Below, one piece after another: positions 593-25,377 of a DNA stretch of 40,095 nucleotides. The notes beneath the pieces are model-generated. The model saw only the letters and a list, made by a program, of their open reading frames with translations, made no database searches and was not told the origin of the DNA. Made by a program: the position numbers and the translations under genes. Each line of letters starts with the position of its first letter. The stretch's first letter is position 1. This DNA is from a virus: positions 1 through 40,095 of IMG/VR virus record IMGVR_UViG_3300023229_000976; one strand, 5' to 3'.

Positions 593-1225
593 ATGAAAGC
601 GTTTATATTATTTTTAAAGGAAGTTGAGAGCACCCATACTCTGGCACAACAGGCATTGACTTCTGCCAAATCACACGGATTGGATGCAGAATTATTTGAA
701 GGGTATGTGCCTTCTCGTGCAGACGAATATATCAAACGTGAAAATTTAAAACCATATACACCGGGTCCTAAATTATACAAAATAAAATGGAGCAAAGGCG
801 GAGTGAGAGGTTGTATGATTTCGCATTTAGAAATGTGGAAAAAATGTGTTGCATTGAACGAAACTGTGGTAATACTAGAGCACGACTCTGTTGTGGTTTC
901 AGACACTTGGAAAACTCCGTTTGATGAGTTACTGCATTTAGACAAACACAGATTTATAGAACCTGATCCAGAGCTAGGACGAGAGCCTTACGTGGAAAAA
1001 TTAGAACACTATCGCAAAGGTGAACGGCAATTGCAAGGCACATATGGCTATGTGATCAAACCAACAACAGCCAAACGATTGATCCGAGGAGCATACGAAG
1101 AAGGATTGACTGCCGCGGATATGTTCGTGAAGGACATGTACTGTAACATACAAGTGGTCAGCCCGCGAGCAGTTACACACAACAATCAAGATTCATTAAC
1201 CTCCAACAGAGAATTCTATATATAA
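593..1225 (+). CDS. glycosyltransferase family 25-like protein
   Basis: This 210-residue protein resembles GT25 enzymes of lipooligosaccharide biosynthesis, which move galactose or a related sugar from a nucleotide donor onto surface glycan. The visible signatures are a starting strand AFILFLK, then GCMISHLEMWKKC at about residues 73-85 (GT25 usually shows GCxxSHxxxW), and VVILEHDSVVV at about 93-102. In most family members this acidic motif is LEDD; here the second acid is His (E96-H97-D98), so metal binding may differ. GYVIKPTTAKRLI near residue 160 matches the family's later conserved block. The gene is followed after 5 bp by an FkbM methyltransferase and then a truncated glycosyltransferase, giving a short glycan-modification block. 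The family call is good; donor and acceptor are unknown. Confidence 0.8.
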   Translation: MKAFILFLKEVESTHTLAQQALTSAKSHGLDAELFEGYVPSRADEYIKRENLKPYTPGPKLYKIKWSKGGVRGCMISHLEMWKKCVALNETVVILEHDSVVVSDTWKTPFDELLHLDKHRFIEPDPELGREPYVEKLEHYRKGERQLQGTYGYVIKPTTAKRLIRGAYEEGLTAADMFVKDMYCNIQVVSPRAVTHNNQDSLTSNREFYI

Positions 1226-1230
1226 CTTGT

Positions 1231-1881
1231 ATGAAGCTATTAGATGACGGCTACTATATTCCAGATGGTGACGATCCAGTACATCACACAGGCGGAAATG
1301 TTAAAGAGCACGATGATAAAATACACGAAGAAGTTCTAAAAAGATCTGTGGGCAAAAAACACATGGTTGATGTGGGAGGAAATGTAGGCAGATGGTCTAA
1401 ATATTACGCAGATATTTTTGAACATGTCACAGCATTTGAACCCGCTGATTACAACATTGAATGTTTTAAAATTAATACCAAAGACAAAACAAACATCACA
1501 CTCAACGAATACGGTCTTGCAGACAAACCCGGCAGAGGAAAACTTGCTGTGGCCATAGAAGAACATCTAGGTTCCACGAGAGTATGGCCCGGCGATGAGG
1601 GCGATATTGTGTTAAAAACTCTAGACGAACACAACTACGATGTTATCGATGTGCTTAAAATTGATGTGGAAGGGCTTGAAATACCAGTGCTCAATGGAGC
1701 AAGGAAAACATTAGAAAGATGCTCACCTGTGATCATTATAGAAAGATGTGTGTTGAATTCCGAAGCATACGGTTACAAAAAAAACGACAGTCATAAGTTG
1801 TTAGTAGAATTGGGCTACCAAAGAGCAGTTAAAATAACCAGAGACTGCATCTATACCAAACACAATGTCCACAGAAAATAA
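1231..1881 (+). CDS. FkbM family SAM-dependent methyltransferase
   Basis: This 216-residue class I methyltransferase has the SAM-binding motif VDVGGNVG at about residues 46-53. The acidic end of strand 2 is in TAFEP at about 68-71. The FkbM signature LKIDVEGLEIPVLNGA spans about 142-157, and a following strand reads PVIIIERC. FkbM enzymes O-methylate sugars or polyketide hydroxyls using S-adenosylmethionine. The length is near the core domain size for the family, so the gene looks intact. It lies 5 bp after the GT25-like gene, and its end overlaps the next glycosyltransferase start by 17 bp. A role in methylating a surface or virion glycan is inferred from this context. No clear Shine-Dalgarno sequence is visible, so translation may depend on coupling to the gene upstream. 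Confidence 0.87.
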   Translation: MKLLDDGYYIPDGDDPVHHTGGNVKEHDDKIHEEVLKRSVGKKHMVDVGGNVGRWSKYYADIFEHVTAFEPADYNIECFKINTKDKTNITLNEYGLADKPGRGKLAVAIEEHLGSTRVWPGDEGDIVLKTLDEHNYDVIDVLKIDVEGLEIPVLNGARKTLERCSPVIIIERCVLNSEAYGYKKNDSHKLLVELGYQRAVKITRDCIYTKHNVHRK

Positions 1882-2347
1882 TATAATCATCTGTTGTCCC
1901 AGCAGAGGCCGGCCTGATCTTGCAAAACGAATGGAACAATCGGCCTACGATACTGCTAGATATCCTGACCTTATTAAAGTTAAATTCTATCTCAATGATG
2001 ATGATCCTGCTTTGGATGCATACAAAAAACACAACCTACGAAATGTTGATATAGGTGTTGACCGTAGCACGGTGATGAGCTGGAATGTGTTGGCCGAGAA
2101 CGAAAACAGTAAAATGTATAAAATGGTCGGGGATGATGCTGAATTTGTCACACCAGAGTGGGATCTTATATTTTTAGAACAGCTCAATAAACATCCAGAT
2201 GGCATATTTGCTATTGGCACAGCAACCGGTAAGGAGCACGGATTAGAGCATCAAACATGTCCACATCCTACTGTTGCCAGGCAATGGCGTGATGCACTTG
2301 TGTGTTTTGGCATTGCAAAAAATGTGCAAAGAACGTGGGTATCATGA
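1865..2347 (+). CDS. glycosyltransferase-like protein, C-terminally truncated
   Basis: This 160-residue product starts like a GT-A/GT2-type glycosyltransferase of marine phages: a first strand IIICCPSRGRPDLA, then VKFYLNDDDPALDAY, and a KMVGDDAEFVTPEWD segment around residues 94-108 that would hold the nucleotide-sugar and metal site. Around residue 140 the sequence reads CPHPTVARQWRDAL, after which intact relatives continue with a conserved hydrophobic acceptor-side segment. Here the frame instead runs about 16 unrelated residues to a stop. From about 2295 the DNA encodes, in another frame, the end of an SGNH-hydrolase-like protein. I infer a deletion or recombination that removed the 3' part of this gene. 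It is probably inactive unless the shortened catalytic domain folds alone. Confidence 0.6.
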   Translation: MSTENNIIICCPSRGRPDLAKRMEQSAYDTARYPDLIKVKFYLNDDDPALDAYKKHNLRNVDIGVDRSTVMSWNVLAENENSKMYKMVGDDAEFVTPEWDLIFLEQLNKHPDGIFAIGTATGKEHGLEHQTCPHPTVARQWRDALVCFGIAKNVQRTWVS

Positions 2348-3574: not shown

Positions 3575-3896
3575 AAAAACCTGGGTTCAGCTCACACAGG
3601 AATTTGTAAGGGAATGGCCCGAAATATTAGAGGGCCTCACCTTTACGAACATGCCCATTCGTTACGTCAAGTGGTGCGACATAGTGCTCAAAAATAAACT
3701 CACCATACACATAGACATTGAAAAAGACCTAGAAAGCAAGTCACAGAATGTCGTTGCAAGGGCTGTGAAATCGTACATTAAAAAAAATTACAACAACATA
3801 CAGACCGTGGATTTGAAATTCGATGTTCCGCGATTGCGGGAGGACATGCAGTCCAAGACAGCTAAACTGATGGACAGGACGTTTAAGAAGAGCTAA
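3537..3896 (+). CDS. conserved small phage protein, unknown function
   Basis: The frame is open from 3447, but its first 30 residues are a low-complexity shadow of the Lys-rich tail of the gene before. I therefore choose the ATG at 3537, giving 119 residues. The body begins KTWVQLTQEFVREWPEILEGL and continues MPIRYVKWCDIVLKNKLTIHI, a mixed alpha/beta pattern. It ends with a basic helix (SKTAKLMDRTFKKS). The pattern is like a small conserved protein of T4-like phages, with no assigned function. Its stop overlaps the stop of the opposing gene by 4 bp, marking the switch to the long minus-strand block. A later start is possible. Confidence 0.65.
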   Translation: MPLNPKQPSPKSKKTWVQLTQEFVREWPEILEGLTFTNMPIRYVKWCDIVLKNKLTIHIDIEKDLESKSQNVVARAVKSYIKKNYNNIQTVDLKFDVPRLREDMQSKTAKLMDRTFKKS

Positions 3897-5200
3897 CTGT
3901 ATCGTTGGTCGTATAGACGATCCACATAATCCCATTCATAACTTTTGAAAACAACTCCGAAGTCATAATTCTGAGACTCTACAAATGTTTTGGCATCTTC
4001 GCCCGCGGCTCGCACATACGAACTGCCCGGCACTAGATCGGGATCCAACCATTTGTTCAAAATAAAACCGTTTTCCACTGTGGGTGTTAGATGCGTGTTG
4101 TACATCAGTTTTACGATCTCTCGAAAAGCAGTTCTATAGCACACACGGGGATCTGTGTAAAACACAGTCTCAGCACTCAGTAGAGGTATGTGATCGTGCT
4201 TCTGTGCCAGTGTGAAGTCCAATCCCTTGCCGTCATTCTCCAACACCAATCTTTTATTGTACAGAATCACTGCTTGATGTCCGTAGGTGTAATCGATAAC
4301 AGGATTATAACAGTCAAAGATATAATGCCTCGGACTCTTTAAACTGTCTGGCACATAATCAAAATGGAAATCTTTATCTATCTTTAGTTTGGCAAACACA
4401 GCATAGAAATATTCTGACACACTGGTCCTGGCCGCGGTCTGGTATGCTTCGCGGCGACCTTGTACCCTTGCGATCTCGTGCAGGCGATTGGGACGGCCTT
4501 TTAGATGCTGTTTGAGCAGTCGTAGGTTGTCTTCTGCCTGTGGTTCTCCGTTGTGTATGTAACACACATCAAAATTCACAGTGGAGGTGCTGGGTTGATC
4601 CATGAGGAATTTCGGAGAATACTCGTACAGCTCTTCATTTATATCACATCTAGGAATCAGCAGATTAAGTCGTTTTTCATCATACACATAGAGTTTTTGA
4701 TCTTCCCAAAAACTAGGCGCAATATGCAAGGGTTCTAGATAATGATAATTCACGTATCGTGCTTTCTGTGATCGAACCTGATCTATAAGGTCATCGAATG
4801 TGAAAGAACTGCAATTCCAATTCACCGCGGAGATGCTGGTGTCACTGTGATAGTTTATATCTTTGAAATCTCTTAAAAATTTTAATCCTGTGATTTGTTT
4901 TTTAAATTCAGCAGTGGGAATCAACATCAAATCACCCTCTGTTTGATCTCTGCCGTTCCACACGTGTATCTGGCGTTGCTCGTGCTGTTCGGGTATGTAA
5001 TCAAAATCAAACTGCTGTGTGTTCACGAGGTCTGTTACCAACCAAAAGAATTCTGTATCAACAGTTTCCACAAAACTTTTTAGAATATCCAAATAACTGC
5101 CCACAAACGGTGTGACTCGAGCATAGGGAAACTGCTCAAGAGCATTCGCTTTAAATGATTCGTTATTTCGGAAATCTACAAATACACAATCAAACGCCAT
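3893..5200 (-). CDS. duplicated-domain protein, possibly glycosyltransferase-related
   Basis: I do not recognise a named family for this 435-residue protein. It contains an internal duplication. Residues ~49-82 (EFFWLV..., then FDFDYIPE, then a hydrophobic strand and WN) match ~262-296 (EYFYAVFAKL, then FHFDYVPD, then HYIFD). A segment between them, FDVCYIHNGEPQAEDNL followed by a Gly-Arg-Arg-Glu-Ala-Tyr helix at ~250, resembles the opening of GT-A glycosyltransferases, but this is only suggestive. A strand VILYNKRLVLEN and an acidic C-terminus complete it. It is the last gene of the long operon. Its start overlaps the aminotransferase end by 11 bp, and its stop overlaps the opposing gene by 4 bp. 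A sugar-related role is inferred mainly from its neighbours. Confidence 0.62.
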   Translation of the reverse strand: MAFDCVFVDFRNNESFKANALEQFPYARVTPFVGSYLDILKSFVETVDTEFFWLVTDLVNTQQFDFDYIPEQHEQRQIHVWNGRDQTEGDLMLIPTAEFKKQITGLKFLRDFKDINYHSDTSISAVNWNCSSFTFDDLIDQVRSQKARYVNYHYLEPLHIAPSFWEDQKLYVYDEKRLNLLIPRCDINEELYEYSPKFLMDQPSTSTVNFDVCYIHNGEPQAEDNLRLLKQHLKGRPNRLHEIARVQGRREAYQTAARTSVSEYFYAVFAKLKIDKDFHFDYVPDSLKSPRHYIFDCYNPVIDYTYGHQAVILYNKRLVLENDGKGLDFTLAQKHDHIPLLSAETVFYTDPRVCYRTAFREIVKLMYNTHLTPTVENGFILNKWLDPDLVPGSSYVRAAGEDAKTFVESQNYDFGVVFKSYEWDYVDRLYDQRYS

Positions 5201-6254
5201 TGAAATCGTTTATCCTTTCGCAGACATAGTCAACTTCACTGAGGGATAGATATGGATAGATAGGTAAGCTGAGTGCCCGTTTACAAATTTTTTCTGCTAC
5301 CGGGTGCGATCCCACAGTGTCCAACGGCTTGGTATAGTGTATCTTGGTTTCTATGCCGTGTGTGGCAAGATATTTTTGTAGCTCATCTCGCCGGTTGTGC
5401 AGTATAACCAGCTTGTGATAACTGCTGGCAGTGTCTTTGTTTGCTCGTACAAACTCTTCATAAGGCAAATTTTTAAAATAACGTTCTGCTATCTTTGTTC
5501 TCCTGGCCTGCAGTGAATCAAATTTATCCAGCAACAGGTTCAACTGTGCGGCGTGATCCTCTGATATTAAACTGTTGTAACCATAAGGTATTCTTTTACC
5601 TTGTAATCCGTGTCTTCGCAGACTGAGCAATCTTTCGTACACATCCTGAGAATCCGTTAAAACCATTCCGCCTGATCCAAAGCTGGGTAAATTTTTCGTG
5701 GGATCAAAACTGAACACAGACACGTCTCCCAGTTGCCCGGACAATTTCTTGTTGGGCCAAGACCCAATCGAGGCACCTTGTGATTGTGCGGCATCTTCTA
5801 TGAGGTATGCTTTGTTCTCATCACAGTATTTTCTTATTCGTGCATAGTCTGCTGTGTTGCCATAGAGATTGACATAAACTATCGCCTGTGGTTTTTGTTG
5901 TGATTGTAGATCTCCCAGATTGCCTTGTGCATCTACATCGGCAAAATTTAATTTGGCTCCTAGTCTTCGCACGGCGCCTGCTGTGGCAATATAACTCAAC
6001 GCAGGACATATGATAGTAGAACCTTTATTCAACTGCAGAGCTCTCATAGCAAAATAAAGACCATCCGTGGCCGATCCCACTCCCACTGCATATTTGCGTT
6101 TGTATTTCTTGCAGAATGCTTTTTCTAAATTTTCCAATTCGGGACCTTGCAACACGTTGCCTGAACGCCACACTCGTTTGGCACGTCGAGTCAAACGCCA
6201 GCTGTAGGCGTCATACAAACGAGCTATACCATTGAATTTAACCTGTGTTACCAT
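5190..6254 (-). CDS. DegT/DnrJ/EryC1/StrS family PLP-dependent sugar aminotransferase
   Basis: This 354-residue protein matches the nucleotide-sugar aminotransferases, which convert a keto-sugar nucleotide to an amino sugar with pyridoxal phosphate and usually glutamate. The GSATDGL loop is at about residues 60-66. IEDAAQSQG at about 152-160 contains the Asp that contacts the PLP ring nitrogen. The PLP-binding Lys is in SFDPTKNL at about K187, followed by SFGSGGMV. A C-terminal YNSLISEDHAAQLNLLL block is also typical of the family. The length is normal, about 350-400 residues. It overlaps the epimerase by 7 bp and the next gene by 11 bp. With the epimerase, cupin and carbamoyltransferase it forms a sugar-modification cassette. 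The exact substrate cannot be read from sequence. Confidence 0.9.
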   Translation of the reverse strand: MVTQVKFNGIARLYDAYSWRLTRRAKRVWRSGNVLQGPELENLEKAFCKKYKRKYAVGVGSATDGLYFAMRALQLNKGSTIICPALSYIATAGAVRRLGAKLNFADVDAQGNLGDLQSQQKPQAIVYVNLYGNTADYARIRKYCDENKAYLIEDAAQSQGASIGSWPNKKLSGQLGDVSVFSFDPTKNLPSFGSGGMVLTDSQDVYERLLSLRRHGLQGKRIPYGYNSLISEDHAAQLNLLLDKFDSLQARRTKIAERYFKNLPYEEFVRANKDTASSYHKLVILHNRRDELQKYLATHGIETKIHYTKPLDTVGSHPVAEKICKRALSLPIYPYLSLSEVDYVCERINDFNGV

Positions 6255-7246
6255 GTGTTGTCTGTTTTAATCTCTGTGACATCTTCTCTGATTGCTGGAT
6301 CGAATTCCGTCATCCAATCATGGTAGTTGTTCAATCCTTTCAACAGTGATACTTTTGGTTGATATCCTAGGATATCCGTCGCTCGAGTTATGTCCAGAGC
6401 ACCACGAGCAGGATACAATGCATTTCTGCCCGCCACTTCGATCTTGCTCTTGCTGTCTGTGATTGATACTATGTGTTCCGCCAGCGTTGTCAACTGTGTG
6501 CCTTCTCCCGAAGATATGTTGAAACTGAGATTGGCCGCACTCGGATGTACAGCACACTGTATGATACCTTCCGCGGCATCGGTCACATACGTGAAATCCA
6601 CAGCATTGATGCCCTTGTGTACCGTGATGTCTTGGTGCTTCACTGCTTGGTCATAAAATTTGGTCACCACCCGATCCGGTATGTCACCAGGACCGTACAC
6701 TCCCGATGGTCGGGCTATTGTGTATTCCACATCTGAGAATTGTTGGAAATGTTTGCAGAATCGTTCTGCGGCCAATTTGGCTTCGCCGTAGATGTTGATG
6801 GGTTTGGTCCTTGCATTCTCTTTCACGCCGTCTTCAAAATGACCGTATATCATCGACGACGATACAAACACGAATCTCTTGGTTCTAAAATTCTTGCAGT
6901 GCTGTAGTAGATTTATAGTGCCATCCACGATGTTGTTCACCCCCAACAGAGGATTGTTGTTGACTAATTTTGCTCGTGGGTAAGAAGCAAGATGTATCAC
7001 CACATCAGGGTTGTTGTTGAACACCCTCAGCAGTGTGTCCTGGGACGTGACTGTTCCTCGATATCTCAGTACCTGCGGAGCCCAATTCCTCTGTCTCCAA
7101 CGATGCGTTTTACTCAACTCGTCCGCTGTCAACAAACCATACGTGTCATGATTGTCCAGAGTGATCACCTGATGCTTCAACTCACACAATCGTTCCACGA
7201 TGTGTGATCCAATAAATCCTTCTCCGCCTGTTACCAATATCTTCAA
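6248..7246 (-). CDS. NAD-dependent epimerase/dehydratase (extended SDR)
   Basis: This 332-residue protein is an extended short-chain dehydrogenase of the nucleotide-sugar type. The NAD-binding Rossmann motif TGGEGFIGS is at about residues 6-14. A catalytic Ser lies in FVFVSSSMIYG near 130, and Tyr153/Lys157 in INIYGEAK form the YxxxK pair. PSGVYGPGD at about residue 180 is the usual substrate-side loop. Such enzymes act as UDP- or dTDP-sugar 4-epimerases, 4,6-dehydratases or reductases; the sequence alone does not decide which. It starts 2 bp after the cupin gene and overlaps the aminotransferase by 7 bp, so the two probably act in sequence on one sugar nucleotide. Confidence 0.9.
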   Translation of the reverse strand: MKILVTGGEGFIGSHIVERLCELKHQVITLDNHDTYGLLTADELSKTHRWRQRNWAPQVLRYRGTVTSQDTLLRVFNNNPDVVIHLASYPRAKLVNNNPLLGVNNIVDGTINLLQHCKNFRTKRFVFVSSSMIYGHFEDGVKENARTKPINIYGEAKLAAERFCKHFQQFSDVEYTIARPSGVYGPGDIPDRVVTKFYDQAVKHQDITVHKGINAVDFTYVTDAAEGIIQCAVHPSAANLSFNISSGEGTQLTTLAEHIVSITDSKSKIEVAGRNALYPARGALDITRATDILGYQPKVSLLKGLNNYHDWMTEFDPAIREDVTEIKTDNTW

Positions 7247-7248
7247 AA

Positions 7249-7581
7249 TTAATGCCTCCTTTGGCCGTCGAACACACAGACGAAATACAATTCCTTGTCG
7301 CTGGTGTTGTACACTCGATGGAATACATCATCCTCTATGAGGACTATATCACCTGCTTTGACTGCGAAGCGTTTTTCATCCAACAGCATCTCTCCTGTGC
7401 CTTCCATGAACATGTACACTTCTTCCTGTCCCTCGTGTCGGTGACCCGTGGTCTCCTTGCCGGGATTCAGTCGAGTACTGCTTAAAATTAAGTTCTTGAG
7501 TAATTTATTGTCCTGGACAACATAACGTTCATCCTGCTTGACAACTTCGCCACCCACATTGAATTTTCCTTCTATCTTCAT
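7249..7581 (-). CDS. small single-domain cupin
   Basis: This 110-residue protein is a single cupin beta-barrel. Motif 1 is visible as TGHRHEGQEEVYMFMEGTG (residues ~45-63), supplying His47, His49 and Glu53 or Glu54 as metal ligands. Motif 2, AGDIVLIEDDVFHRVYN (~76-92), supplies His88. The family includes sugar-phosphate isomerase-like and keto-sugar isomerase-like proteins, as well as sensors and dioxygenases. Its place between the carbamoyltransferase (4 bp overlap) and the epimerase (2 bp gap) points to a sugar step. It is shorter than the FdtA/WxcM type 3,4-ketoisomerases, so that specific assignment is not made. Confidence 0.85.
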   Translation of the reverse strand: MKIEGKFNVGGEVVKQDERYVVQDNKLLKNLILSSTRLNPGKETTGHRHEGQEEVYMFMEGTGEMLLDEKRFAVKAGDIVLIEDDVFHRVYNTSDKELYFVCVFDGQRRH

Positions 7582-9065
7582 AGTACCCTTACATTGTACT
7601 TGGTTTCGAATCGTTTTGCATCCGTTTTATCGTTCACAATGGGCTCTCCCTTGATGTTCAGGCTGGTATTCAGCAGTATGGGACAACCGGTGCGTTTTTT
7701 CCACTGTTTTAACAGCTCATAGAACCCTGGATTGTCCGTCTTATTGACGGTTTGTACCCGACTTGTTCCGTCACAGTGTAATATGGCAGGACAGTCATTA
7801 CCATGCGTGTACGCCGCTGTGTATTGCATATAAGGGGCTCTTTTAACACCTTTAGGCAGGGCGAAATACTCATGTACGTCCTCTTCCAGTATGGCCGGTG
7901 CGAATGGTCTGAACTCCTGTCTGCGTTTGATGCGGTTCACTGTGTCCTTGATTCCCGGTCCCCTGGGGTCTGCCAGCAGTGATCTATTACCAAGTGCTCG
8001 AGGTCCAAATTCTGCCCTGCCTGAGGCCACTCCCACCATTTTGTTTTCGGTCAATTCTTTGATCAGTGCATCCACCGGATATTCTCCCTCGATGTTGTGG
8101 CCCAGGAAAGGAGTACGCCATTTTAAATGTTTCTTCTGAGAAGCGGCTATACAGCCCAATGAAGAGCCTGCATCACCTGGGTTTGGCATGATCCAACAGT
8201 CGTCATACACTCCCTGGTTCATCAGCACAGCGTTGGCCACACAGTTGAGGGCCACACCTCCACTATAACATAGATTTCGTGATTCGCCGAACCGACTCAC
8301 TGCTTGTTGTCCCTGTGGTATGAACGATGTGCTCCGTTTCCACATTTGCAACAGCAGTTCTTCTGTGACTTTCTGTATGGAAGCGGCAAGATCCATGGGA
8401 TCAGCGCCTGGCATCCAATCTCCCAGGCCTCTGTGTAGATTTCTTTTCAATTTAAAAGTCTTGAAATCTATGAGGTCCTGATAGATGGCATCTCTGTGTT
8501 TGGTCTCGCCGTATGCAGACATACCCATCAGGATGTATTCTTCTTCACAGGGTTTTAATCCGCATCTCTGTGTGAATGCCGAATACAACAGTCCCACGGA
8601 ATGCGGGTAACGCAGTGAATCCAATTTCTCTAATCTTTTGCCATGGCCTTTCCACAGAGTCATAGTTTCCCATTCGCCTATGGCATCCACACACAGAACC
8701 ATGGCATCTGTGAAAGGTGATGTGTAGTAACTGCCCGAGGCGTGTGAGTGATGGTGATCCACATACTCATCTATTTTGATGCCAAACTGTCGTAGATGCT
8801 GTGAGGGTAAATTTTCGGTAGTGAACACTTCTGAGTATTGTCCTGCACTGAACTGTCTTCGTTTCTTGTTCCATGGTTTTTCATAATACACCACTCGATC
8901 AAAAGGACCGTGGGTCAATGCTTCATCCACAATCGCTTGATTGAGATAATGATCGTTCTTGATCTTGGAATAGCGTTCTGAGTGTGCGGCCCACAGTATC
9001 TCGGAACCGTCCACCACTGCCATTGCGGCATCGTGATTCAGACAGTTGATGCCCAGTATCCTCAT
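7578..9065 (-). CDS. NodU/CmcH family O-carbamoyltransferase
   Basis: This 495-residue protein has both halves of the carbamoyltransferase fold. The N-terminal Kae1-like part starts RILGINCLNHDAAMAVV, with ERYSK at ~30-34 and the metal-binding DHHHSHASG cluster at ~103-111, followed by VLCVDAIGEW. The C-terminal domain has the signature GRAEFGPRALGNRSLLADPR and the later PILLNTSLNIKGEPIV block. Enzymes of this family use carbamoyl phosphate and ATP to place a carbamoyl group on a hydroxyl of a sugar or antibiotic. It overlaps the cupin by 4 bp and the 60-residue gene by 4 bp. The length is a little below many members but all motifs are present, so it should be active. The acceptor is unknown. 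Confidence 0.92.
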   Translation of the reverse strand: MRILGINCLNHDAAMAVVDGSEILWAAHSERYSKIKNDHYLNQAIVDEALTHGPFDRVVYYEKPWNKKRRQFSAGQYSEVFTTENLPSQHLRQFGIKIDEYVDHHHSHASGSYYTSPFTDAMVLCVDAIGEWETMTLWKGHGKRLEKLDSLRYPHSVGLLYSAFTQRCGLKPCEEEYILMGMSAYGETKHRDAIYQDLIDFKTFKLKRNLHRGLGDWMPGADPMDLAASIQKVTEELLLQMWKRSTSFIPQGQQAVSRFGESRNLCYSGGVALNCVANAVLMNQGVYDDCWIMPNPGDAGSSLGCIAASQKKHLKWRTPFLGHNIEGEYPVDALIKELTENKMVGVASGRAEFGPRALGNRSLLADPRGPGIKDTVNRIKRRQEFRPFAPAILEEDVHEYFALPKGVKRAPYMQYTAAYTHGNDCPAILHCDGTSRVQTVNKTDNPGFYELLKQWKKRTGCPILLNTSLNIKGEPIVNDKTDAKRFETKYNVRVL

Positions 9066-9244
9066 TCAGTGATCACCCAGGCCCTGTGATAGTAATCGTC
9101 GATGTTCTGTTGTATCAACGTTTTGGCCAACTTGTTGGCTTCGTCTGGAGCCATCGGACCGTACTGTCGTGAGGTAGAAAAGTCCATCGTGCTCTTGTCG
9201 TTGGGATCTAGATGTGTGCCTTCTATGACGTAATATGTGGTCAT
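9062..9244 (-). CDS. 60-residue protein of unknown function
   Basis: The product starts TTYYVIEGTHLDPND, followed by a polar middle with SRQYGPM and a helix APDEANKLAKTLIQQNIDD, and ends YHRAWVITE. The pattern suggests a short beta strand plus a helix that packs on it. There is no cysteine, signal peptide or membrane segment. Its stop overlaps the carbamoyltransferase start as ATGA, so the two are probably translationally coupled. It lies just after a 34-residue gene and the SGNH/radical SAM genes. It could be a subunit or regulator of the carbamoyltransferase, or a leftover phage protein; nothing in the sequence decides. Confidence 0.62.
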   Translation of the reverse strand: MTTYYVIEGTHLDPNDKSTMDFSTSRQYGPMAPDEANKLAKTLIQQNIDDYYHRAWVITE

Positions 9245-9245
9245 G

Positions 9246-9350
9246 CTATTTGTAGATGAAAGGATCTTTTTTCTTAAGTTCTTTTAACCTTTTTCTATAC
9301 TTTAATTCTTGTTGAATCTTGTTGTACAGATCTTTTATCCATTGTATCAT
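9246..9350 (-). CDS. 34-residue basic helical micro-protein
   Basis: This gene fills the apparent gap between 9245 and 9359. Reading the minus strand, an ATG at 9350 follows a strong ribosome binding site (AAGGAG, 9356-9361) by five bases and opens a 34-codon frame ending in TAG at 9246-9248. The product is one amphipathic, highly basic helix: it begins MIQWIKDLYNKIQQELKYRK and ends with a Leu-Lys-rich stretch and DPFIYK. Short proteins with this LKxLKKxDPFIYK-like ending are a recurring feature of marine T4-like phages as far as I recall. That makes a phage-housekeeping protein more likely than a peptide substrate of the radical SAM enzymes. Its function is unknown. Confidence 0.72.
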   Translation of the reverse strand: MIQWIKDLYNKIQQELKYRKRLKELKKKDPFIYK

Positions 9351-9355
9351 TGTGT

Positions 9356-9361
9356 CTCCTT
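9356..9361 (-). promoter_or_regulatory. strong ribosome binding site for the 34-residue gene
   Basis: AAGGAG on the minus strand, five bases before the ATG at 9350. It overlaps the stop codon of the SGNH-like gene (9360-9362). It is the main evidence that the short frame is translated. Confidence 0.75.
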
Positions 9362-10148
9362 ATTGGTTGTATAATTTGTTAAATGTGGGCAACATCAATT
9401 GTACAGCATCTGTGTGTGCTGAGTCAAGCGGATGTGTGGTGGCCCTGGGATAATCGTTCATCAGTGCCCACTGGTTGAATCCCATGTGTCGTTCTCCAAA
9501 CGTGAACCATCGAGAAAAATCAATCTCGGAATGCATGGCTCGCATCAGGGCATCTTCCTCCCACAGTGGTGTGAACTCGTCATAGAACAGGGTGTTGTCC
9601 GCCAGGGTGAACATGTAGGGTATCTTACGCTTTTCCAGTATGTGCTGTAGCCACACGATGGATTTCCAGCTCAGGTAGGTCTCGTGGTAACGATTCGCGG
9701 CGTGGCGATACAGGGCATCAGCGAATGGTCCTATGCCGGTTTGTTGATATTGTTGTCTTCGCTTTTTCCAAGTTTCTAATATGCCATTGTCCCCTGATAA
9801 TTTTGCATAAACTTCATTTTGTTTTGATTCAGTGTCCCAGGGTGTTATGGTGGCCCAGCGAGTGTCTTCCAACACATTGTTGCGAGGCATGGCCCAGTCA
9901 TAACGAGAACAGAAACTCCACATCACTGTGACGAAACATTCCTCTTTTGTGTTTGCAATGTAGTTGAACACTCTGCGAGCAATACCAGGATTGCCTAGTC
10001 CGCCTTTGGCCACACAGAAGTAGTTGGCTCCCACTGAGTTGCTTAGGTGTGATGCCCATGCTTTCTTGCTGGGTGTTTTGCCGTCATCGTCAGACAGCTC
10101 GTTGCCAAATGTGAATGAGCATCCGCCCGATAGTAGTGTCCTAGTCAT
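9360..10148 (-). CDS. SGNH-hydrolase-like protein
   Basis: This 262-residue protein opens RTLLSGGCSFTFGNEL. GCSFT at residues 9-13 stands for the GDSL block, with Ser11 as the likely nucleophile. A Gly/Asn block follows (KGGLGNPGIARR), and a C-terminal THPLDSAHTDA holds His239 and His245 as candidate catalytic bases. Enzymes of this fold add or remove acyl or acetyl groups on carbohydrates and other esters. The Asp that normally precedes the catalytic His by two or three residues is not obvious, so activity should be tested. The start overlaps the stop of the last radical SAM gene by 8 bp. In this operon, O-acetyl removal or transfer on a glycan is plausible but unproven. Confidence 0.75.
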   Translation of the reverse strand: MTRTLLSGGCSFTFGNELSDDDGKTPSKKAWASHLSNSVGANYFCVAKGGLGNPGIARRVFNYIANTKEECFVTVMWSFCSRYDWAMPRNNVLEDTRWATITPWDTESKQNEVYAKLSGDNGILETWKKRRQQYQQTGIGPFADALYRHAANRYHETYLSWKSIVWLQHILEKRKIPYMFTLADNTLFYDEFTPLWEEDALMRAMHSEIDFSRWFTFGERHMGFNQWALMNDYPRATTHPLDSAHTDAVQLMLPTFNKLYNQ

Positions 10149-11307
10149 ATATCTCCAGTACGTTATTTAAAAGAGGGAACACTTCGCCAAAATTTTCTTT
10201 CCTGTACTGATCTGTTTGCAGTATTCTCTTTTTCCTCTGTTCACGCATCTGTGCTGTGTCTCTGTCAGCAGAATTCATGAATCTCAGTGTGGGCTGGAAA
10301 TTGGTCAGCATGCTGTATCTGGAATTTACTATGTTTTTTACCTGCTTGGGCAGTGTCTGCACATTGAAATAGTCTGGATCAAACAGTGTGTTCACATAAA
10401 AGAACTTGGGCTGGTATTGTGCCACCCAAAAAGCAATCTTGGCCCAGTTGAACACATTGAAGATGGATACTGTGGTGCATATTTGGAAATCCATGTTGTG
10501 TGTTTTTGATTCCTTGAACTTGACAAGGTTTGCATTGACTTCTTGCCAATTGGCCGGGTGTCGTTGATATTCAAAAGGTTCGCCCACATCGTCTATTGAG
10601 AATGCTATCTCAACATGTTTGAAACGCGACCAAAGGTCAAATATCTCCCGTGGTGGCAGTTGCGTGCCGTTGGTGTTGTAGTGTATGTCTATGTTCTTGG
10701 CATATCCCTTCTCCACACAGTGCATCAATATCTTAAAATGATCCTGTATCATGAACGGCTCTCCACCCGTGAACTCAAAATATTCCACGTGTGCCAGATC
10801 ATCCTTGAGGTCCTCAAAGAACTGTGGATTGCGTTTGGGCCATCCGCCATCTTTTAAATTTTTCCGAGCCACAGGGTTCTCCCCATACTCCATTTCTTCC
10901 TGTGCCCATTTGCTCGAACTCCATGATCCGCATATCCGACATTTTAAATTACACACGTTGCCCAGCTTAAAGTCAATGAAACGCAGTGTTGGCTCGCTAT
11001 CGGGTGTCCATTCTGTGAGACTTTTCTTCATCTTGTATATGGAGTTCTGTCTCTTGGACGTTTTGCCTGCATCCTCCTCCTGCCAACAGCTCTGGCATCC
11101 TGTGGGACGTTCACCGTCACGGAACTGTGTTCTCAGATTTGCCATGTATTCCGTTTGTTGTATCGAACTCAGGCTCTGTTCATACACCTTGACCCCGGGC
11201 ACACTGCCCTTGTACAGACAGCAAGGTGACGCTCCCCCGTTCACATCCACTTCCAGATGTGTCCACGGCAGAGGACAGATGTTTGATTTTATATACCGTT
11301 CCACCAT
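10141..11307 (-). CDS. radical SAM protein with N-terminal twitch/SPASM-like cysteines (array member 5)
   Basis: This 388-residue protein has the radical SAM cluster site CNLKCRIC (C119, C123, C126), the SAM-contacting FTGGEPF motif and an iSIDDVGE strand. Before the core are extra cysteines: C11 in NICPLPWTH, C29-C30 in GGASPCC, and C71/C74 in GERPTGCQSCW. They resemble the ligands of the SPASM/twitch auxiliary iron-sulfur cluster, which normally lies after the core. The reaction would begin with reductive SAM cleavage to the 5'-deoxyadenosyl radical; the substrate is unknown. The start has AAGGA seven bases upstream and overlaps the previous gene by 19 bp. The C-terminus is a basic helix followed by VFPLLNNVLEIYD. 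It is the shortest of the five members and the last transcribed. Confidence 0.88.
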   Translation of the reverse strand: MVERYIKSNICPLPWTHLEVDVNGGASPCCLYKGSVPGVKVYEQSLSSIQQTEYMANLRTQFRDGERPTGCQSCWQEEDAGKTSKRQNSIYKMKKSLTEWTPDSEPTLRFIDFKLGNVCNLKCRICGSWSSSKWAQEEMEYGENPVARKNLKDGGWPKRNPQFFEDLKDDLAHVEYFEFTGGEPFMIQDHFKILMHCVEKGYAKNIDIHYNTNGTQLPPREIFDLWSRFKHVEIAFSIDDVGEPFEYQRHPANWQEVNANLVKFKESKTHNMDFQICTTVSIFNVFNWAKIAFWVAQYQPKFFYVNTLFDPDYFNVQTLPKQVKNIVNSRYSMLTNFQPTLRFMNSADRDTAQMREQRKKRILQTDQYRKENFGEVFPLLNNVLEIYD

Positions 11308-12572
11308 GCCAGTATCCTTGTGTCTCTGCTCAATATGTTTGTTATATCCTGTTTACGTATTGCGTCTATGCGTTCCTGTCTCTGTTTGCCTTTTAGTGTG
11401 GCTGTGAATGTATCTCTGGTTTTTAGATTCTTTAACACGTCCGTTAATGCTCGTTGTTTTCGAGTTGCACGTGGTTCCATGTATGCCAGTGCTTCATCTA
11501 TTATGGTGTGCAACAGTTCTCGAGGCAACGACAACGGACTTAGTATTTCGTCGTTGGAGAATGTGAACATCACTTTGGTTAGTATTTCAGCATCTAATTC
11601 CTGACTCAGATCAAACATATTTTTAAGCTCTAACAGTCCTGGCAAGGTGAGTGTGTAATCCAATCTCATTTCCCTGGCGGTCTTGGCCACGGCCAGACCT
11701 TCTTTAAAATTATTCATCCAATCTGCATAGTTCAATCCGTCTCTGATGTATTCTCCCACTTCTGCTGTGCCATCCAAAGAAGCACACACCTGCCAGTCTT
11801 GAAACTGTGGCAGAAGATCAAACAGTTTGATGCCTTTGAACGACGTCCTGCTTAGATTGGTATTGTATCGCACACACACATCTTTAGCGAATCCTAGTTC
11901 TATTATTCTCTGCATGGCCTGCCAGTGTATATCCCACATCAGGGGTTCTCCCCCGCACCAATATATCTCTTTTATGGTCTTAGATTCTATGGCACTTAAG
12001 AACTCTTCCACAACCTGTGTGTCTTGGAACTGTTTGATCTGCTCTCTCAGCGGTGATGCCATCCACGGCTGATTGTCCTTGTTCCAGGTGCCCTGCTTTC
12101 GTGATTCTGCTTCCCAACTGCTGGACAACATATCTCCGCACATCCTACATTTAAAATTACATAGATTGTTAAAACGATAATCAAAACTTATTGTGGGCAT
12201 TGTGGTGGCGCCCGTGTCATCTGTGCTGTCGTACGCTTCGTCGATCTTATCAGCAAACAGTTGATTCCAGTAGGATCTGTAAACATCAGTGTTCAATAAT
12301 TTGTGTGTGCATACTTCACATTCAGACAATTCTTCTCCGGCCATCATACGCAGTCGTACAGATCGCATATGTTCTGAATTCCAGTGCTCTTTGAGTGTGA
12401 GAGGGTTGTATTTGTTTGCATCATTGCCTGCGTCTATGTACTGGCGGAAACTCTGTGCTGGTTCCCTGGATGCACAACACAGTCGTCTTTCTGTCTGTGG
12501 TGACAGGTAGGTGTGTGTCCATGGTGCCATACAGAACGTCTCGTTGCCCTCACTTGGCTTAATCTTTTTCAT
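11289..12572 (-). CDS. radical SAM protein with N-terminal twitch/SPASM-like cysteines (array member 4)
   Basis: This 427-residue protein has the radical SAM motif CNFKCRMC (C138, C142, C145), WCGGEPLM, and a predicted substrate-side strand VCASLDGTAE. The N-terminal extra cysteines are C14 in TFCMAPWTH, C32-C33 in RRLCCASRE, and C85/C88 in SECEVC. One extra Cys (WCGGEP) immediately precedes the GGEP motif and is not shared by the other four. Its C-terminus ends RILAWWNGI, close to the AWYNGL ending of member 2, and lacks the FPE motif of members 1 and 3. No strong ribosome binding site precedes the ATG, so translation probably relies on the 14 bp overlap with member 3. The substrate is unknown. 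Confidence 0.88.
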   Translation of the reverse strand: MKKIKPSEGNETFCMAPWTHTYLSPQTERRLCCASREPAQSFRQYIDAGNDANKYNPLTLKEHWNSEHMRSVRLRMMAGEELSECEVCTHKLLNTDVYRSYWNQLFADKIDEAYDSTDDTGATTMPTISFDYRFNNLCNFKCRMCGDMLSSSWEAESRKQGTWNKDNQPWMASPLREQIKQFQDTQVVEEFLSAIESKTIKEIYWCGGEPLMWDIHWQAMQRIIELGFAKDVCVRYNTNLSRTSFKGIKLFDLLPQFQDWQVCASLDGTAEVGEYIRDGLNYADWMNNFKEGLAVAKTAREMRLDYTLTLPGLLELKNMFDLSQELDAEILTKVMFTFSNDEILSPLSLPRELLHTIIDEALAYMEPRATRKQRALTDVLKNLKTRDTFTATLKGKQRQERIDAIRKQDITNILSRDTRILAWWNGI

Positions 12573-13842
12573 ACAATTCTGCTAATTCTGGAAATACAGT
12601 TAATATGTTTTCATCTCTGATAGCATCTATACGCTTCATGCTGTCTTTGAACTGCTGTAGGTCCTTGGAGTTGTCTCTCCTCATCATGTAATCTAGTCCT
12701 GATTCAAATCCCTTGGTTGCACGAGTTAGATTATCCTGTGGACGTAACCATTCTAGATGTTTTTCGTATTTTTCTTTTATTCGTTGTTTAAATGCGTCGG
12801 GCAATAGATCTATCCTCTGTGCATACGGAAATTGTAATAGATTAAAATTAAAATCCTGGGGTTTTAACAGTCCTTGATCTACCCAATTGCGATGGAAGTC
12901 TGGAATGTGCAGAGCATTGATAAGTCCCACTGTGCTGGATATGTAGAAGTCCACTTTAGGACAGACTTCCAGCATACGTCGTCTGTTTGCTACCACATCC
13001 GACCACACAGTGCCTTTACGCATGAACTCTCCTCTAGTTCCTTCAGCATCCAGACTGGCTCCTATGGACACAGAATCAAATTTGTTCCATAGTTCCAACA
13101 CATCCATATCTTTGAATTTTAACTTTGTAAAGTTTGTGTTGTAGATCAATCTCACGTGATACATTTTACGTCTATCTAGTTCTTTTAGAATCCTATAATG
13201 CTCTTCCATGATAAGTGGTTCTCCACCTGCAAAATAAAACTGCTCCACGTGATCAAACTGTTCCAACATCTGCTCCCATATATCATCAGAGCTTCTGCCT
13301 ACTCGCATGATCTTTGCATGTTCAGGTGGTTTGCCTGTTAGTTTTTTATGATCTTCATACCAATTAGACGAGAACCATGTGCCACAACTCCTACAAGCAA
13401 GATTGCATAGGTTACTGAATCTTATATCCCAATACTTGATAACAAATTCCGCACTACCATCTGCTTGTGTGTTTTCTGTCATGCCGATGTTGTGTCCAAA
13501 ATGTTTGTTTGAACTCAAACGCAATGAGAAGAATCCTGACTTCTCTTGATCGTAACATTTAGTACACTGCTTACTTGGTTTGTTTGCCAACATGTTTGTT
13601 CGCATCTGTCGCATATCTGGCCCATTAAACACAGTTTCCATAGAGTCTTTGTTTAAATCCCCTACAGGGTATCGGTCCAGGGCAAAACAGCAAGGATATG
13701 CACGACCGTCTGGAAAGGCATGCAGATGTAGCCATGGCATCATACAGAAAGTATCTGACTCCAGCAGGAGTTCCTTCTCAGTAGGAGTCATGTCTTTTAT
13801 CTTTAATTTTTCAGGCTCTTTAGCCCCGTATTCATAAGCCAT
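12559..13842 (-). CDS. radical SAM protein with N-terminal twitch/SPASM-like cysteines (array member 3)
   Basis: This 427-residue protein has CNLACRSC (C146, C150, C153), FAGGEPLIM and a SIGASLDAEG strand, all in the order of a radical SAM core. The N-terminal part has C33 in TFCMMPWLH, a Gly turn PDGRAYPCC with C51-C52, and C93/C96 in KQCTKC. The CxxPW...G...PCC arrangement looks like the SPASM entrance motif moved in front of the core. The C-terminal helix ends RIDAIRDENILTVFPELAELYEKD. AGGAG lies nine bases before the ATG, and the gene overlaps member 2 by 11 bp. Members 3, 4 and 5 form one subgroup because all have a CC pair. Confidence 0.9.
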   Translation of the reverse strand: MAYEYGAKEPEKLKIKDMTPTEKELLLESDTFCMMPWLHLHAFPDGRAYPCCFALDRYPVGDLNKDSMETVFNGPDMRQMRTNMLANKPSKQCTKCYDQEKSGFFSLRLSSNKHFGHNIGMTENTQADGSAEFVIKYWDIRFSNLCNLACRSCGTWFSSNWYEDHKKLTGKPPEHAKIMRVGRSSDDIWEQMLEQFDHVEQFYFAGGEPLIMEEHYRILKELDRRKMYHVRLIYNTNFTKLKFKDMDVLELWNKFDSVSIGASLDAEGTRGEFMRKGTVWSDVVANRRRMLEVCPKVDFYISSTVGLINALHIPDFHRNWVDQGLLKPQDFNFNLLQFPYAQRIDLLPDAFKQRIKEKYEKHLEWLRPQDNLTRATKGFESGLDYMMRRDNSKDLQQFKDSMKRIDAIRDENILTVFPELAELYEKD

Positions 13843-15178
13843 TGTACCATGCTCCTATCTTTGGGAAAGTCTTGGCAAAATCCTTGCCTCGTCTCTCGTC
13901 GTATTGTTTATAGAAATTTTTAAAGTCTGACCTCAGTTTTGGTAAATCAAATGCTTCAGAATGCGGTGTTTTTACTGTGTCTAGATAGTCTATTAATCGT
14001 TGGGTGTGTGCCACTTCCATGGGTTCTAAATTCCCTATCTGTCGAGTTAACCATGCATCTAGATTGTTTTTAAACTCTGTTCTCAAGTGGTCTGGCAGTA
14101 CCAGCGGTGATTGGAATGATGGGAACCTTAAAATGTTTAGGGTGAAATTAACATCCACTCCGTAGACTCGCTTGGCATCAATCTTGTTTTGTACGATCTT
14201 GTCCAGGAACTCTGGCAATGATTCCAGGCACAGTGCATTCACCGTACACATGTTGTGCATACCTGCAGGTCGTAATTGATTGATCACATTGGCAAAATTC
14301 ATGTACCATTCAGAGAAATTCATTCCGTCTCTGATGTAATCCGATTGAGCAAATGTGGCTTCGTTGGAAGTGTATATGTGTAGGTTGGGCACATTTTTAC
14401 ATTTCTCGATAAACTTGAGAAACAGATCCCCTTTGGGTACAAGGTTAGAATTTATAGCAAATCTCATCTTAGGATTTACTCGGTGTTTCTCAGTTTCAAA
14501 CCAATCTAGCAGTCTCCATAGGTGTGGGCTCATCATGGGCTCTCCGCCTGTGATTCTCAATTCTTCCAGTGTGCGATGTAGATCAGATTCCCACCATTTG
14601 AAAAATGCTTCCACATAGGGATTGGTCTCGTCCAACTTGTATGGCTGTGCAGATTCGTGTGAGTGTGTGAAATGATTTCTACCATCTGATACCAATTCAG
14701 TGTACGATCCTTTTTGTTTGATGTCTTTGGCCCAGGTGGTTGAGAATGCTGGATTACAATATGAACAAGCAAAGTTACAGGTCCTGTCAAAGGCAATCTC
14801 CAAAGTCTTAAGGTCAACGTCCTCTGTTATGGGCGTTTGGCTTGCTACCTCGAGGTCCACATCTGAATAAATTTTACTTTTATAAACTCTGTCACTCACA
14901 GCATCTTTGCCCATGTCCTCGATCTTCCAACAGTATTCACACCCCGCGGGTCTTTCTCCTGCAATCATTTTAGCACGATCCTGTTTTTTCTGAGGAGTGT
15001 TGTGCAGTTCTTTTGGGTTCTGCGTTACTTTAGCAAGATCAACTCGGTGTGCTGGAGGATGGTGACAGCTTGTGGTCATGCCTGATCCCAGCCATATTGT
15101 GGCATTGTACCATTTGGCTCCACAAAACGATGGAGAAATAGAATCTAGTATCTGTTTTTTATAGTCTATGTCTTTCAT
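13832..15178 (-). CDS. radical SAM protein with N-terminal twitch/SPASM-like cysteines (array member 2)
   Basis: This 448-residue protein is a close relative of member 1. The radical SAM site is CNFACSYC (C134, C138, C141), then ITGGEPMM and a strand around NMCTVNAL. The N-terminal cysteines are C19 in SFCGAKW, C38 in TTSCHHPPAH (a single Cys, not the CC pair of members 3-5), and C80/C83 in GERPAGCEYCWK. His39 and His40, or the HPP motif, may compensate for the lost Cys. It ends DERRGKDFAKTFPKIGAWYNGL. AGGA precedes the ATG by about eight bases, and the gene overlaps member 1 by 4 bp. Tandem duplication from a common parent with member 1 is likely. Confidence 0.9.
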   Translation of the reverse strand: MKDIDYKKQILDSISPSFCGAKWYNATIWLGSGMTTSCHHPPAHRVDLAKVTQNPKELHNTPQKKQDRAKMIAGERPAGCEYCWKIEDMGKDAVSDRVYKSKIYSDVDLEVASQTPITEDVDLKTLEIAFDRTCNFACSYCNPAFSTTWAKDIKQKGSYTELVSDGRNHFTHSHESAQPYKLDETNPYVEAFFKWWESDLHRTLEELRITGGEPMMSPHLWRLLDWFETEKHRVNPKMRFAINSNLVPKGDLFLKFIEKCKNVPNLHIYTSNEATFAQSDYIRDGMNFSEWYMNFANVINQLRPAGMHNMCTVNALCLESLPEFLDKIVQNKIDAKRVYGVDVNFTLNILRFPSFQSPLVLPDHLRTEFKNNLDAWLTRQIGNLEPMEVAHTQRLIDYLDTVKTPHSEAFDLPKLRSDFKNFYKQYDERRGKDFAKTFPKIGAWYNGL

Positions 15179-17437: not shown

Positions 17438-17766
17438 GAATACATCCTTTCTCCTTTGTCTATAAACGTTTCTGGCCAATATGGATTGCTTTGTAACAAT
17501 TTATACCCTTTTTCGTCTGTGGGCAATAATTCGTCTTCCAATGTTTTTAATTTTACAACAGGTCTAGGCAATATCTTTAAACCATTCCATATATAATTCT
17601 CTAAACCGCCGTCACGTAATTTAGCATAAGTTTCTGAATTTATTTCTATTACTTTTTCTAATTCTTTGTGTCCTATATGGGTTATTTTTTCCCTTTCCAC
17701 TTTCATAAAATATTTTAGTCTAGGTCTAGAGTTGAATTGTGAAAGGGCTTTAAAAAATTCGGTCAT
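17422..17766 (-). CDS. 114-residue protein of unknown function
   Basis: I do not recognise this protein. It starts TEFFKALSQFNSRPRLKYFM and continues with a charged KVEREKITHIGHKELEKVIEI segment, then TYAKLRDGGLENYIWNGL, and ends near WPETFIDKGERMYSWQKK. It has no cysteine or membrane segment. The mixed Lys/Glu content and short aromatic clusters suggest a small soluble alpha/beta protein. GGAGG lies six bases before the ATG. It overlaps the upstream glycosyltransferase-like gene by 17 bp and the downstream one by 16 bp, so it is a real member of the operon rather than a shadow. It may be a partner of one of the flanking transferases. Confidence 0.68.
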   Translation of the reverse strand: MTEFFKALSQFNSRPRLKYFMKVEREKITHIGHKELEKVIEINSETYAKLRDGGLENYIWNGLKILPRPVVKLKTLEDELLPTDEKGYKLLQSNPYWPETFIDKGERMYSWQKK

Positions 17767-23952: not shown

Positions 23953-23958
23953 AGGAGA

Positions 23959-25362: not shown

Positions 25363-25369
25363 ATACCTA

Positions 25370-25377
25370 TATTTATA
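25370..25377 (-). promoter_or_regulatory. TATAAATA, possible T4-type late promoter element
   Basis: TATAAATA is the exact T4 late promoter -10 element. It sits on the minus strand, seven bases before ATG 25362, and overlaps the stop codon of the gene before. Transcription would begin almost at the ATG, so the transcript would be leaderless or would serve the genes further on. The motif could be chance in AT-rich DNA. Confidence 0.3.

Follow-up and report, generated by a model that had tools for sequence, protein, structure and literature searches.

A phage gene run predicted to build and decorate a carbohydrate, with an aminotransferase module exchanged at gene borders

The stretch analysed here, hereafter the window, is the whole of the 40,095-base IMG/VR virus record IMGVR_UViG_3300023229_000976, possibly a fragment. 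Four adjacent genes on its reverse strand encode a DegT-type aminotransferase (DegT), a short-chain dehydrogenase/reductase (SDR), a small cupin and a carbamoyltransferase (CTase), which a reading made from the sequence alone, before any database search, had described as one cassette for a carbamoylated or amino deoxysugar. What we observed directly is the gene content, two predicted folds, three genes that are conserved and under purifying selection, and DegT exchange at gene borders between near-identical phages.

The four focal genes

The open reading frames (ORFs) are as tightly packed as the sequence-only reading had described, with spacings of -7 bp (DegT/SDR), +2 bp (SDR/cupin) and -4 bp (cupin/CTase). 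All four proteins scored above their Pfam cut-offs: DegT with PF01041 (1.2e-71, 242.3 bits against a cut-off of 19.8), SDR with Epimerase (PF01370, 2.8e-44), the cupin with Cupin_2 (1.3e-16), and CTase with both Carbam_trans_C (5.1e-55) and Carbam_trans_N (7.1e-47). The key residues described as intact are also present. The SFDPTKN block of DegT, which we take to hold the pyridoxal phosphate (PLP) lysine, aligns with solved DegT enzymes; SDR carries SSSMIYG and YxxxK, with SSSM(I/V)YG found in 14 of the 14 SDRs aligned; the cupin carries HRHEGQEEVY and a later His; and CTase carries HHHSHA, EFGPRALGNRS and LNTS. Gene order is conserved in related phages. Against the closely similar locus L004, ratios of non-synonymous to synonymous substitution (dN/dS) were 0.069 for CTase, 0.076 for the cupin and 0.064 for SDR, as compared with 0.207 for the upstream SGNH gene; the first three genes are under purifying selection and the SGNH gene less so. 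The silent sites of DegT were too diverged from those of L004 for a ratio. The SDR start codon is TTG, preceded by AAAGGAGG, and the SDR ORFs of relatives, as called, start at the same position, except that of L036 (+7 residues).

The solved relatives of the window DegT include QdtB (164 bits), 2oga (147 bits) and WbpE (134 bits) among the best, ahead of ArnB (96 bits), although the top match is instead 7b0d (180 bits), named glutamine--scyllo-inositol transaminase, which is also the top match of the L004 DegT. The L004 protein matches this same solved group more strongly than the window protein does. We take 2oga to be DesV, and QdtB, DesV and WbpE to be sugar C3 aminotransferases; since these precede ArnB, the window DegT probably acts at C3.

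The SDR had been read as an epimerase/dehydratase, and the first half of that name stands better than the second. Among solved structures it comes closest to sugar epimerases, and its motif is of the epimerase/oxidoreductase type. In dTDP-glucose 4,6-dehydratases, an Asp-Glu pair precedes YxxxK; this pair is absent from the window SDR, which scored 110.3 bits against the 365.1 bits of the RmlB NCBIfam equivalog, and a 4,6-dehydratase role was rejected. With the dehydratase motif missing from the SDR, the 'deoxy' part of the predicted sugar is without support. Neither is it a GalE equivalog (TIGR01179, 118.3 against 262.3 bits), and it fell below the cut-off for all 25 NCBIfam models among the matches listed. 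A scan of cellular genome contigs returned three SDR relatives at 22-26% identity and one 33-residue match at 52%. For the cupin, the FdtA-type model (presumably PF05523, for FdtA/QdtA-type 3,4-ketoisomerases) was not among the Pfam matches at 1e-3, where Cupin_2 was. CTase is predicted to be a NodU/CmcH/TobZ-type O-carbamoyltransferase, with transfer to a hydroxyl group.

The earlier remark that no nucleotidyltransferase is visible was borne out for PF00483, which is absent from the window and was recovered from 0 of 11 related records, other nucleotidyltransferase families not having been searched; the control genomes were positive in 14 of 14 cases, and the related records may be incomplete. 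In these 11-record searches G001 and G006 count as two, though they do not differ anywhere in the 21 kb that was compared. None of the genes at the locus was recognised as being of dehydratase type. SDRs of the GDP_Man_Dehyd type occur in 9 of the 11 records, four of which hold two copies; the second copy in G001 has a GalE-like SSSAATYG motif and matches a PHROG of nucleotide-sugar epimerases.

Exchange of the aminotransferase module

Searches of viral contigs returned 30 loci with CTase and three with DegT, two of the latter on contigs already found. We present 22 of the 33 loci (L004-L036) as representatives, leaving out L009, L017, L022, L024, L025, L028, L029, L030, L031, L034 and L035 as lying on the same contig or being close relatives. 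L004, L032 and L033 are incomplete in such a way that the radical SAM array (RS1-RS5) cannot show, and L019 and L020 end within CTase.

The window and L004 are 91% identical in DNA from position 10440 to 6250. Window positions 3897-6249, which hold DegT and the gene at 3893-5200, are replaced in L004 by an 81-residue ORF, a glycosyltransferase gene (38% protein identity), another DegT (30%) and a Gfo/Idh-type gene, and identity then resumes at 98.4% from 3896 and at 99.5% from 2308. A second pair, L007 and L012, is 98.9% identical over 11.6 kb and then differs in SDR/DegT content. DegT is exchanged as a separate module at gene borders between near-identical phages.

Identity matrices agree with this picture (Mantel tests, 11-16 loci per pair). 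DegT identity was uncorrelated with that of six other genes tested (rho 0.02-0.12, p at least 0.175), whereas CTase identity correlated with RS1 (rho 0.50, p = 0.016), SGNH (0.46), SDR (0.34), the 3893 gene (0.57) and the flanking gene 3041 (0.85), with p at most 0.038 in every case. The sequence-only reading had named unrelated phylogenies as what would count against it, and this was found in part: judged by these identities, the histories of DegT and CTase are uncoupled.

The other genes differ in how constantly they occur. CTase is accompanied by four or more of the five radical SAM relatives in 14 of the 22 representative loci (L007 and L012 share that stretch), and the radical SAM/SGNH/CTase core is constant in these 14. 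L021 and L023 have CTase without radical SAM relatives, and L008, L026 and L027 have other, distant ones. An SDR of at least 50% identity follows CTase in 12/22 loci; in 3/22 (L006, L007, L036) an SDR of 31-35% is found close by on the opposite strand. DegT of at least 46% occurs in 9/22 loci, divergent DegT (29-38%) in 5/22, and L018 has none. The cupin is limited to 2/22, namely L004 and L005, the latter holding all four genes together (CTase 83%, cupin 95%, SDR 74%, DegT 64%). An obligatory cupin-DegT pair of the FdtA/FdtB kind was rejected, as L004 retains the cupin while its DegT is exchanged and eight loci have DegT of at least 46% without a cupin (L006, L007, L011-L014, L016, L032).

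Gfo/Idh-type genes adjoin the divergent DegT genes in L004, L010, L015, L033 and L007 (Pfam-checked in L004 and L007); that of L007 has UDP-N-acetylglucosamine 3-dehydrogenase as its best NCBIfam model, although its 61.4 bits fall far short of the 450-bit cut-off. L007 also encodes a PIG-L de-N-acetylase, with a relative in L006. The longest relative, G001 (the L025 contig), carries portal, head maturation protease, major head, tail sheath and terminase genes, so the lineage is that of a tailed phage with a contractile tail, as these annotations indicate; we infer that it is T4-like.

Some ORFs of relatives were annotated by appearance. On that basis we take 322-330-residue ORFs inserted in the core between the SGNH and CTase genes of L010, L011, L016 and L020 to be thioredoxin reductase-like, L027 8428-9135, near CTase, to hold an IscU-like gene, and G001 22667-26054 to hold a tandem pair of amidinotransferase-like genes along with a QueE-like radical SAM gene. 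A-type iron-sulphur (Fe-S) carriers occur in 1 of the 11 records, with two copies there, and that L027 stretch near CTase also includes one. L036 7387-8792 holds a gene that is dihydrofolate reductase-like by appearance and a thymidylate synthase gene (4.1e-109). Both adjoin the SDR and DegT genes there, while CTase and the radical SAM genes lie on the other strand.

The wider gene run

The co-directional run spans 3893-19295 and extends beyond the four genes on both sides (Table 1). Downstream, the 3893-5200 gene overlaps DegT by 11 bp. Upstream of CTase come a 60-residue ORF and, beyond a 115-bp gap, the SGNH gene, followed by the array of five radical SAM genes and by the three glycosyltransferase-like ones; most of these genes overlap. 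Farther upstream, the same strand carries genes of tail-fibre or virion type and one for a 4,183-residue protein. Neither tRNA genes nor Rfam families were found in the window.

Table 1. Features of the co-directional run and of the neighbouring group on the opposite strand.
Feature	Coordinates	Strand	Basis
DegT/DnrJ/EryC1/StrS PLP aminotransferase, exchangeable	5190-6254	-	ORF, Pfam, alignment
Extended SDR, nucleoside diphosphate (NDP)-sugar epimerase/oxidoreductase type (SSSMIYG...YxxxK), not dehydratase-type	6248-7246	-	Pfam, motif
Small Cupin_2 protein with metal-site-type histidines	7249-7581	-	Pfam, motif
Predicted O-carbamoyltransferase (CTase), NodU/CmcH/TobZ family, 495 residues	7578-9065	-	Pfam, PHROG, motifs
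Tandem GT-A-type protein, 435 residues, DxD lost in both repeats; swapped along with DegT in L004	3893-5200	-	Predicted fold
60-residue ORF between SGNH and CTase genes; L004 counterpart 92% identical	9062-9244	-	
SGNH/GDSL carbohydrate-esterase-like fold; S11, G50, N53, H245 conserved	9360-10148	-	Predicted fold, motifs
N-twitch radical SAM 1 (RS1)	10141-11307	-	NCBIfam/Pfam, cysteines
N-twitch radical SAM 2 (RS2)	11289-12572	-	NCBIfam/Pfam, cysteines
N-twitch radical SAM 3 (RS3)	12559-13842	-	NCBIfam/Pfam, cysteines
N-twitch radical SAM 4 (RS4)	13832-15178	-	NCBIfam, cysteines
N-twitch radical SAM 5 (RS5)	15175-16626	-	NCBIfam, cysteines
Glycosyltransferase-like (VDGDN), homologue of the 3893-5200 protein; TTG start uncertain (86-bp overlap)	16541-17479	-	
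Glycosyltransferase-like, motif only (LEADV); start placed at an internal ATG kept in relatives	17750-18559	-	
Glycosyltransferase-like, motif only (MDCDYF)	18552-19295	-	
Neighbour group: GT25 (593-1225), FkbM methyltransferase (1231-1881), glycosyltransferase-like by PHROG (1865-2347)	593-2347	+	

All five radical SAM proteins exceeded the 170-bit cut-off of the N-twitch model NF033640 (RS1 374, RS2 311.7, RS3 417.4, RS4 296.7, RS5 318.5 bits), and the CxxxCxxC motif and N-terminal cysteines are intact in each. RS2-RS5 are only 22-30% identical to RS1, and Pfam places SPASM domains in RS1-RS3. Against solved structures, the radical SAM profile found 8vpo best, a radical SAM protein of unstated role (3.3e-08); cytosylglucuronate decarboxylase, a sugar-nucleoside enzyme, matched at just 9.1e-04, which is too weak to serve as support. 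Across the surveyed loci, RS2 identity is bimodal (50-56% or 65-85%) and RS1 identity mostly 70-85%, which suggests that alleles may be exchanged inside the array too.

The 9360-10148 protein had no relevant Pfam match. Its AlphaFold2 model (mean predicted local distance difference test score, pLDDT, 81.5) has an SGNH hydrolase fold, with the acetyl-xylan esterase Est2A as best Foldseek match (4.2e-06) and TesA matched by VIA (Z 15.0, root-mean-square deviation 2.7, 155 residues aligned). The protein also has the Ser, Gly, Asn and His blocks by which SGNH hydrolases are recognised. The model of the 3893-5200 protein (pLDDT 85.4) has a tandem GT-A-type fold, with chondroitin polymerase as best Foldseek match (3.1e-06) and B4GALNT1 matched by VIA (Z 11.8, root-mean-square deviation 2.9, 139 residues aligned). 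Its homologue at 16541-17479 retains VDGDN, and a relative of the 17750 gene is present in 14 of 16 related records.

Several further observations concern the flanks. The 593-2347 genes are 99-100% identical in L004, and in the L005 stretch examined they had no tblastn match, save for a 30% FkbM match elsewhere. The 4,183-residue protein (27541-40092) matches an FG-GAP repeat (65.9 bits), CBM5/12 just below cut-off and a virion-structural PHROG, and is 57% identical in G001. The proteins at 20720-22345, 23959-25362 and 25373-26863 share N-terminal phrog_15511 matches and have weaker virion or tail-fibre matches.

Interpretation and comparison with known systems

On balance, we think the run is probably an operon with which a marine tailed phage builds and decorates a carbohydrate, the acceptor being the virion or the host envelope. 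The glycosyltransferases would draw on host sugar nucleotides to make a short glycan, which the core set (five radical SAM proteins, an SGNH esterase or acyltransferase, the O-carbamoyltransferase and the SDR) would modify, CTase using carbamoyl phosphate and ATP to carbamoylate a sugar hydroxyl. The exchangeable module would supply a variable amino sugar, the DegT transaminase, probably acting at C3, being partnered by the SDR in this phage and by a Gfo/Idh oxidase in others. Since no dehydratase-type gene was recognised and no PF00483 found, the keto-sugar precursor might come from the host, or arise when the SDR or one of the radical SAM enzymes oxidises a sugar. As acceptor we put the adsorption apparatus of the phage itself first, because tail-fibre-type genes precede the run on its strand, with the host envelope about as likely; module exchange would then alter the surface glycan between sister phages. 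The amino- and carbamoyl-sugar chemistry of the sequence-only reading is upheld by the gene families, the sugar-type enzymes in homologous slots and the nearby GT-A and esterase folds. The CTases of HTVC008M and XacN1, which fall outside the DNA-type clade described below, lie near glycosyltransferases, that of HTVC008M also near a UDP-glucose dehydrogenase.

Several points weigh against this reading. The substrate, product and acceptor of each enzyme are predictions, and the CTases of S-CAM8, P-SSM2 and S-SSM7 sit among genes not annotated for sugars. DxD is absent from both repeats of the 3893-5200 protein, of which VIA covered only residues 207-368 well; as cytidylyltransferases such as IspD score close behind in the VIA list (Z 10.0-10.7), its fold alone does not separate a glycosyltransferase from a nucleotidyltransferase. 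Identities of the 3893 gene and of DegT were uncorrelated (rho 0.07, p = 0.249), which means that these genes do not make a fixed pair. Of the upstream glycosyltransferase-like proteins, 16541-17479 matched Glycos_transf_2 at just E 0.086 and had no NCBIfam match, and for 17750-18559 and 18552-19295 Pfam and NCBIfam gave no glycosyltransferase match. SPASM/twitch radical SAM enzymes, moreover, are known chiefly for modifying peptides, and some of the operon may therefore have protein as its substrate.

The same chemistry could possibly be aimed at the host envelope (lipopolysaccharide, LPS, or capsule), blocking co-infecting phages or easing progeny release; we hold this less probable than the general reading. 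The DegT and SDR relatives named in searches include cell-envelope enzymes, and cyanophages carry large LPS-type gene clusters of unresolved function (PMC3037559). Set against this are the position of the run after tail-fibre-type genes and the tailed-phage gene content of G001; no sign of lysogeny was seen, though none was searched for.

It is doubtful that the radical SAM array matures peptides or proteins (products akin to ribosomally synthesised and post-translationally modified peptides, or virion proteins) while the sugar genes do a separate job. The SPASM domains of RS1-RS3 and the 8vpo match would fit, but the array is syntenic with the SGNH and CTase genes, the RS1 and CTase identities correlate (as expected of any neighbours), and no precursor peptide was noticed, none having been searched for. 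At the other extreme, the five N-twitch proteins might all be sugar enzymes that oxidise, epimerise or deoxygenate the glycan, making keto sugars for DegT to aminate, and thus a dehydratase-free, radical-based way of making a hypermodified surface glycan that bears carbamoyl and changes type when DegT is exchanged; we offer this as speculation, with low expectations.

A single dedicated pathway, in which the four genes together yield one carbamoylated amino deoxysugar, seems unlikely to us. The genes are adjacent and co-directional, and all four recur together in L005, but DegT is exchanged independently, the cupin is rare, L018 lacks DegT and the SDR is not a dehydratase. The single cassette of the sequence-only reading was therefore not sustained: the run extends both ways, and its core is CTase, SGNH and radical SAM.

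A phage CTase linked to thymidylate synthase carbamoylates 5-hydroxymethylcytosine (5hmC), and the positions reported to differ most are W408, G421 and R423 in TobZ numbering (PMC8670742). In our tree (40 rows, 30 of them different, L001/Mosig and L002/C48C1 being the same proteins twice, and without the seven loci with incomplete CTase, L019, L020, L028, L029, L031, L032 and L033), the CTases of Xp15, BF503P2 and Effie, which have a thymidylate synthase/dCMP hydroxymethylase relative nearby, form their own clade (support 100/100), with a long-branch warning, and the window CTase lies outside it; the PMC8670742 enzyme's own sequence is not in the tree. At TobZ positions 408/421/423, mapped by counting along the motif, the window has Val, Gly and Arg; at 421/423, Xp15 and BF503P2 have Cys/Thr and Effie has Gly/Thr. 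Arg at 423 is shared by the window and 36 other rows, with Thr in the three DNA-type CTases, and this difference holds despite the long-branch warning because it is independent of the tree. A thymidylate synthase family member was found in 1 of the 11 related records (that of L036), and tblastn with the Xp15 enzyme gave nothing significant in the window or G001. Tet_JBP was found in 0/11 records, which is uninformative as no control genome matched either. Although such a phage enzyme exists and G001 is incomplete, so that missing genes prove little, carbamoylation of modified phage DNA, with the sugar genes feeding DNA hypermodification, is disfavoured on clade, residue and gene content and seems very improbable.

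Phage sugar clusters and CTases are already known; sugar, LPS-type and carbamoyltransferase genes have long been noted in marine phages without a role (PMC3037559). Among the titles and abstracts of the literature searched, we found no description of the present gene arrangement and modular exchange. The clean replacement between near-identical phages makes a conserved enzyme core distinguishable from an exchangeable amino-sugar module, and it suggests selection on a phage-made surface glycan; the conserved five-gene radical SAM set thereby gains a testable chemical context. Bacterial surface-antigen loci exchange types in a similar fashion.

The window CTase resembles the solved decarbamoylnovobiocin CTase, GdmN and TobZ in having both Pfam domains and the conserved blocks; it differs from these in being phage-borne and 495 residues long, and in carrying Val at the position mapped to TobZ W408. 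With the 5hmC DNA carbamoyltransferase (PMC8670742) it shares a superfamily and a phage origin, but it falls in another clade than thymidylate-synthase-linked CTases, has a different residue and has no thymidylate synthase found beside it. T4-like marine phages can be rich in Fe-S genes, one genome holding 12 radical SAM genes (PMC5332604), and they resemble the present loci in this richness and in the A-type carrier and the IscU-like gene (by appearance) near CTase in L027; the main text of PMC5332604 does not mention carbamoyltransferase, aminotransferase or glycosyl. In Tasman Sea phages, too, the chief auxiliary genes named include radical SAM and glycosyltransferase genes (PMC7150976).

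The cyanophage and pelagiphage Nol-like carbamoyltransferases belong to the same PHROG as the window CTase (phrog_1601, 4.9e-93), and they too come from marine tailed phages and keep company with sugar genes. Identity of the window CTase to the near-full-length Nol-like matches listed is 28-36%, and 43% to the single-cell record AG-345-D19. No annotated radical SAM gene lies in the stretches examined of HTVC008M, S-CAM8, P-SSM2 and S-SSM7, where many proteins are hypothetical. Pelagibacter phage Mosig EXVC030M has no SDR or cupin between the genes in question and is distant in sequence (CTase 33%, DegT 32%), but like the window it groups DegT, MoaA-like radical SAM and CTase genes, which are adjacent to one another at 64-68 kb.

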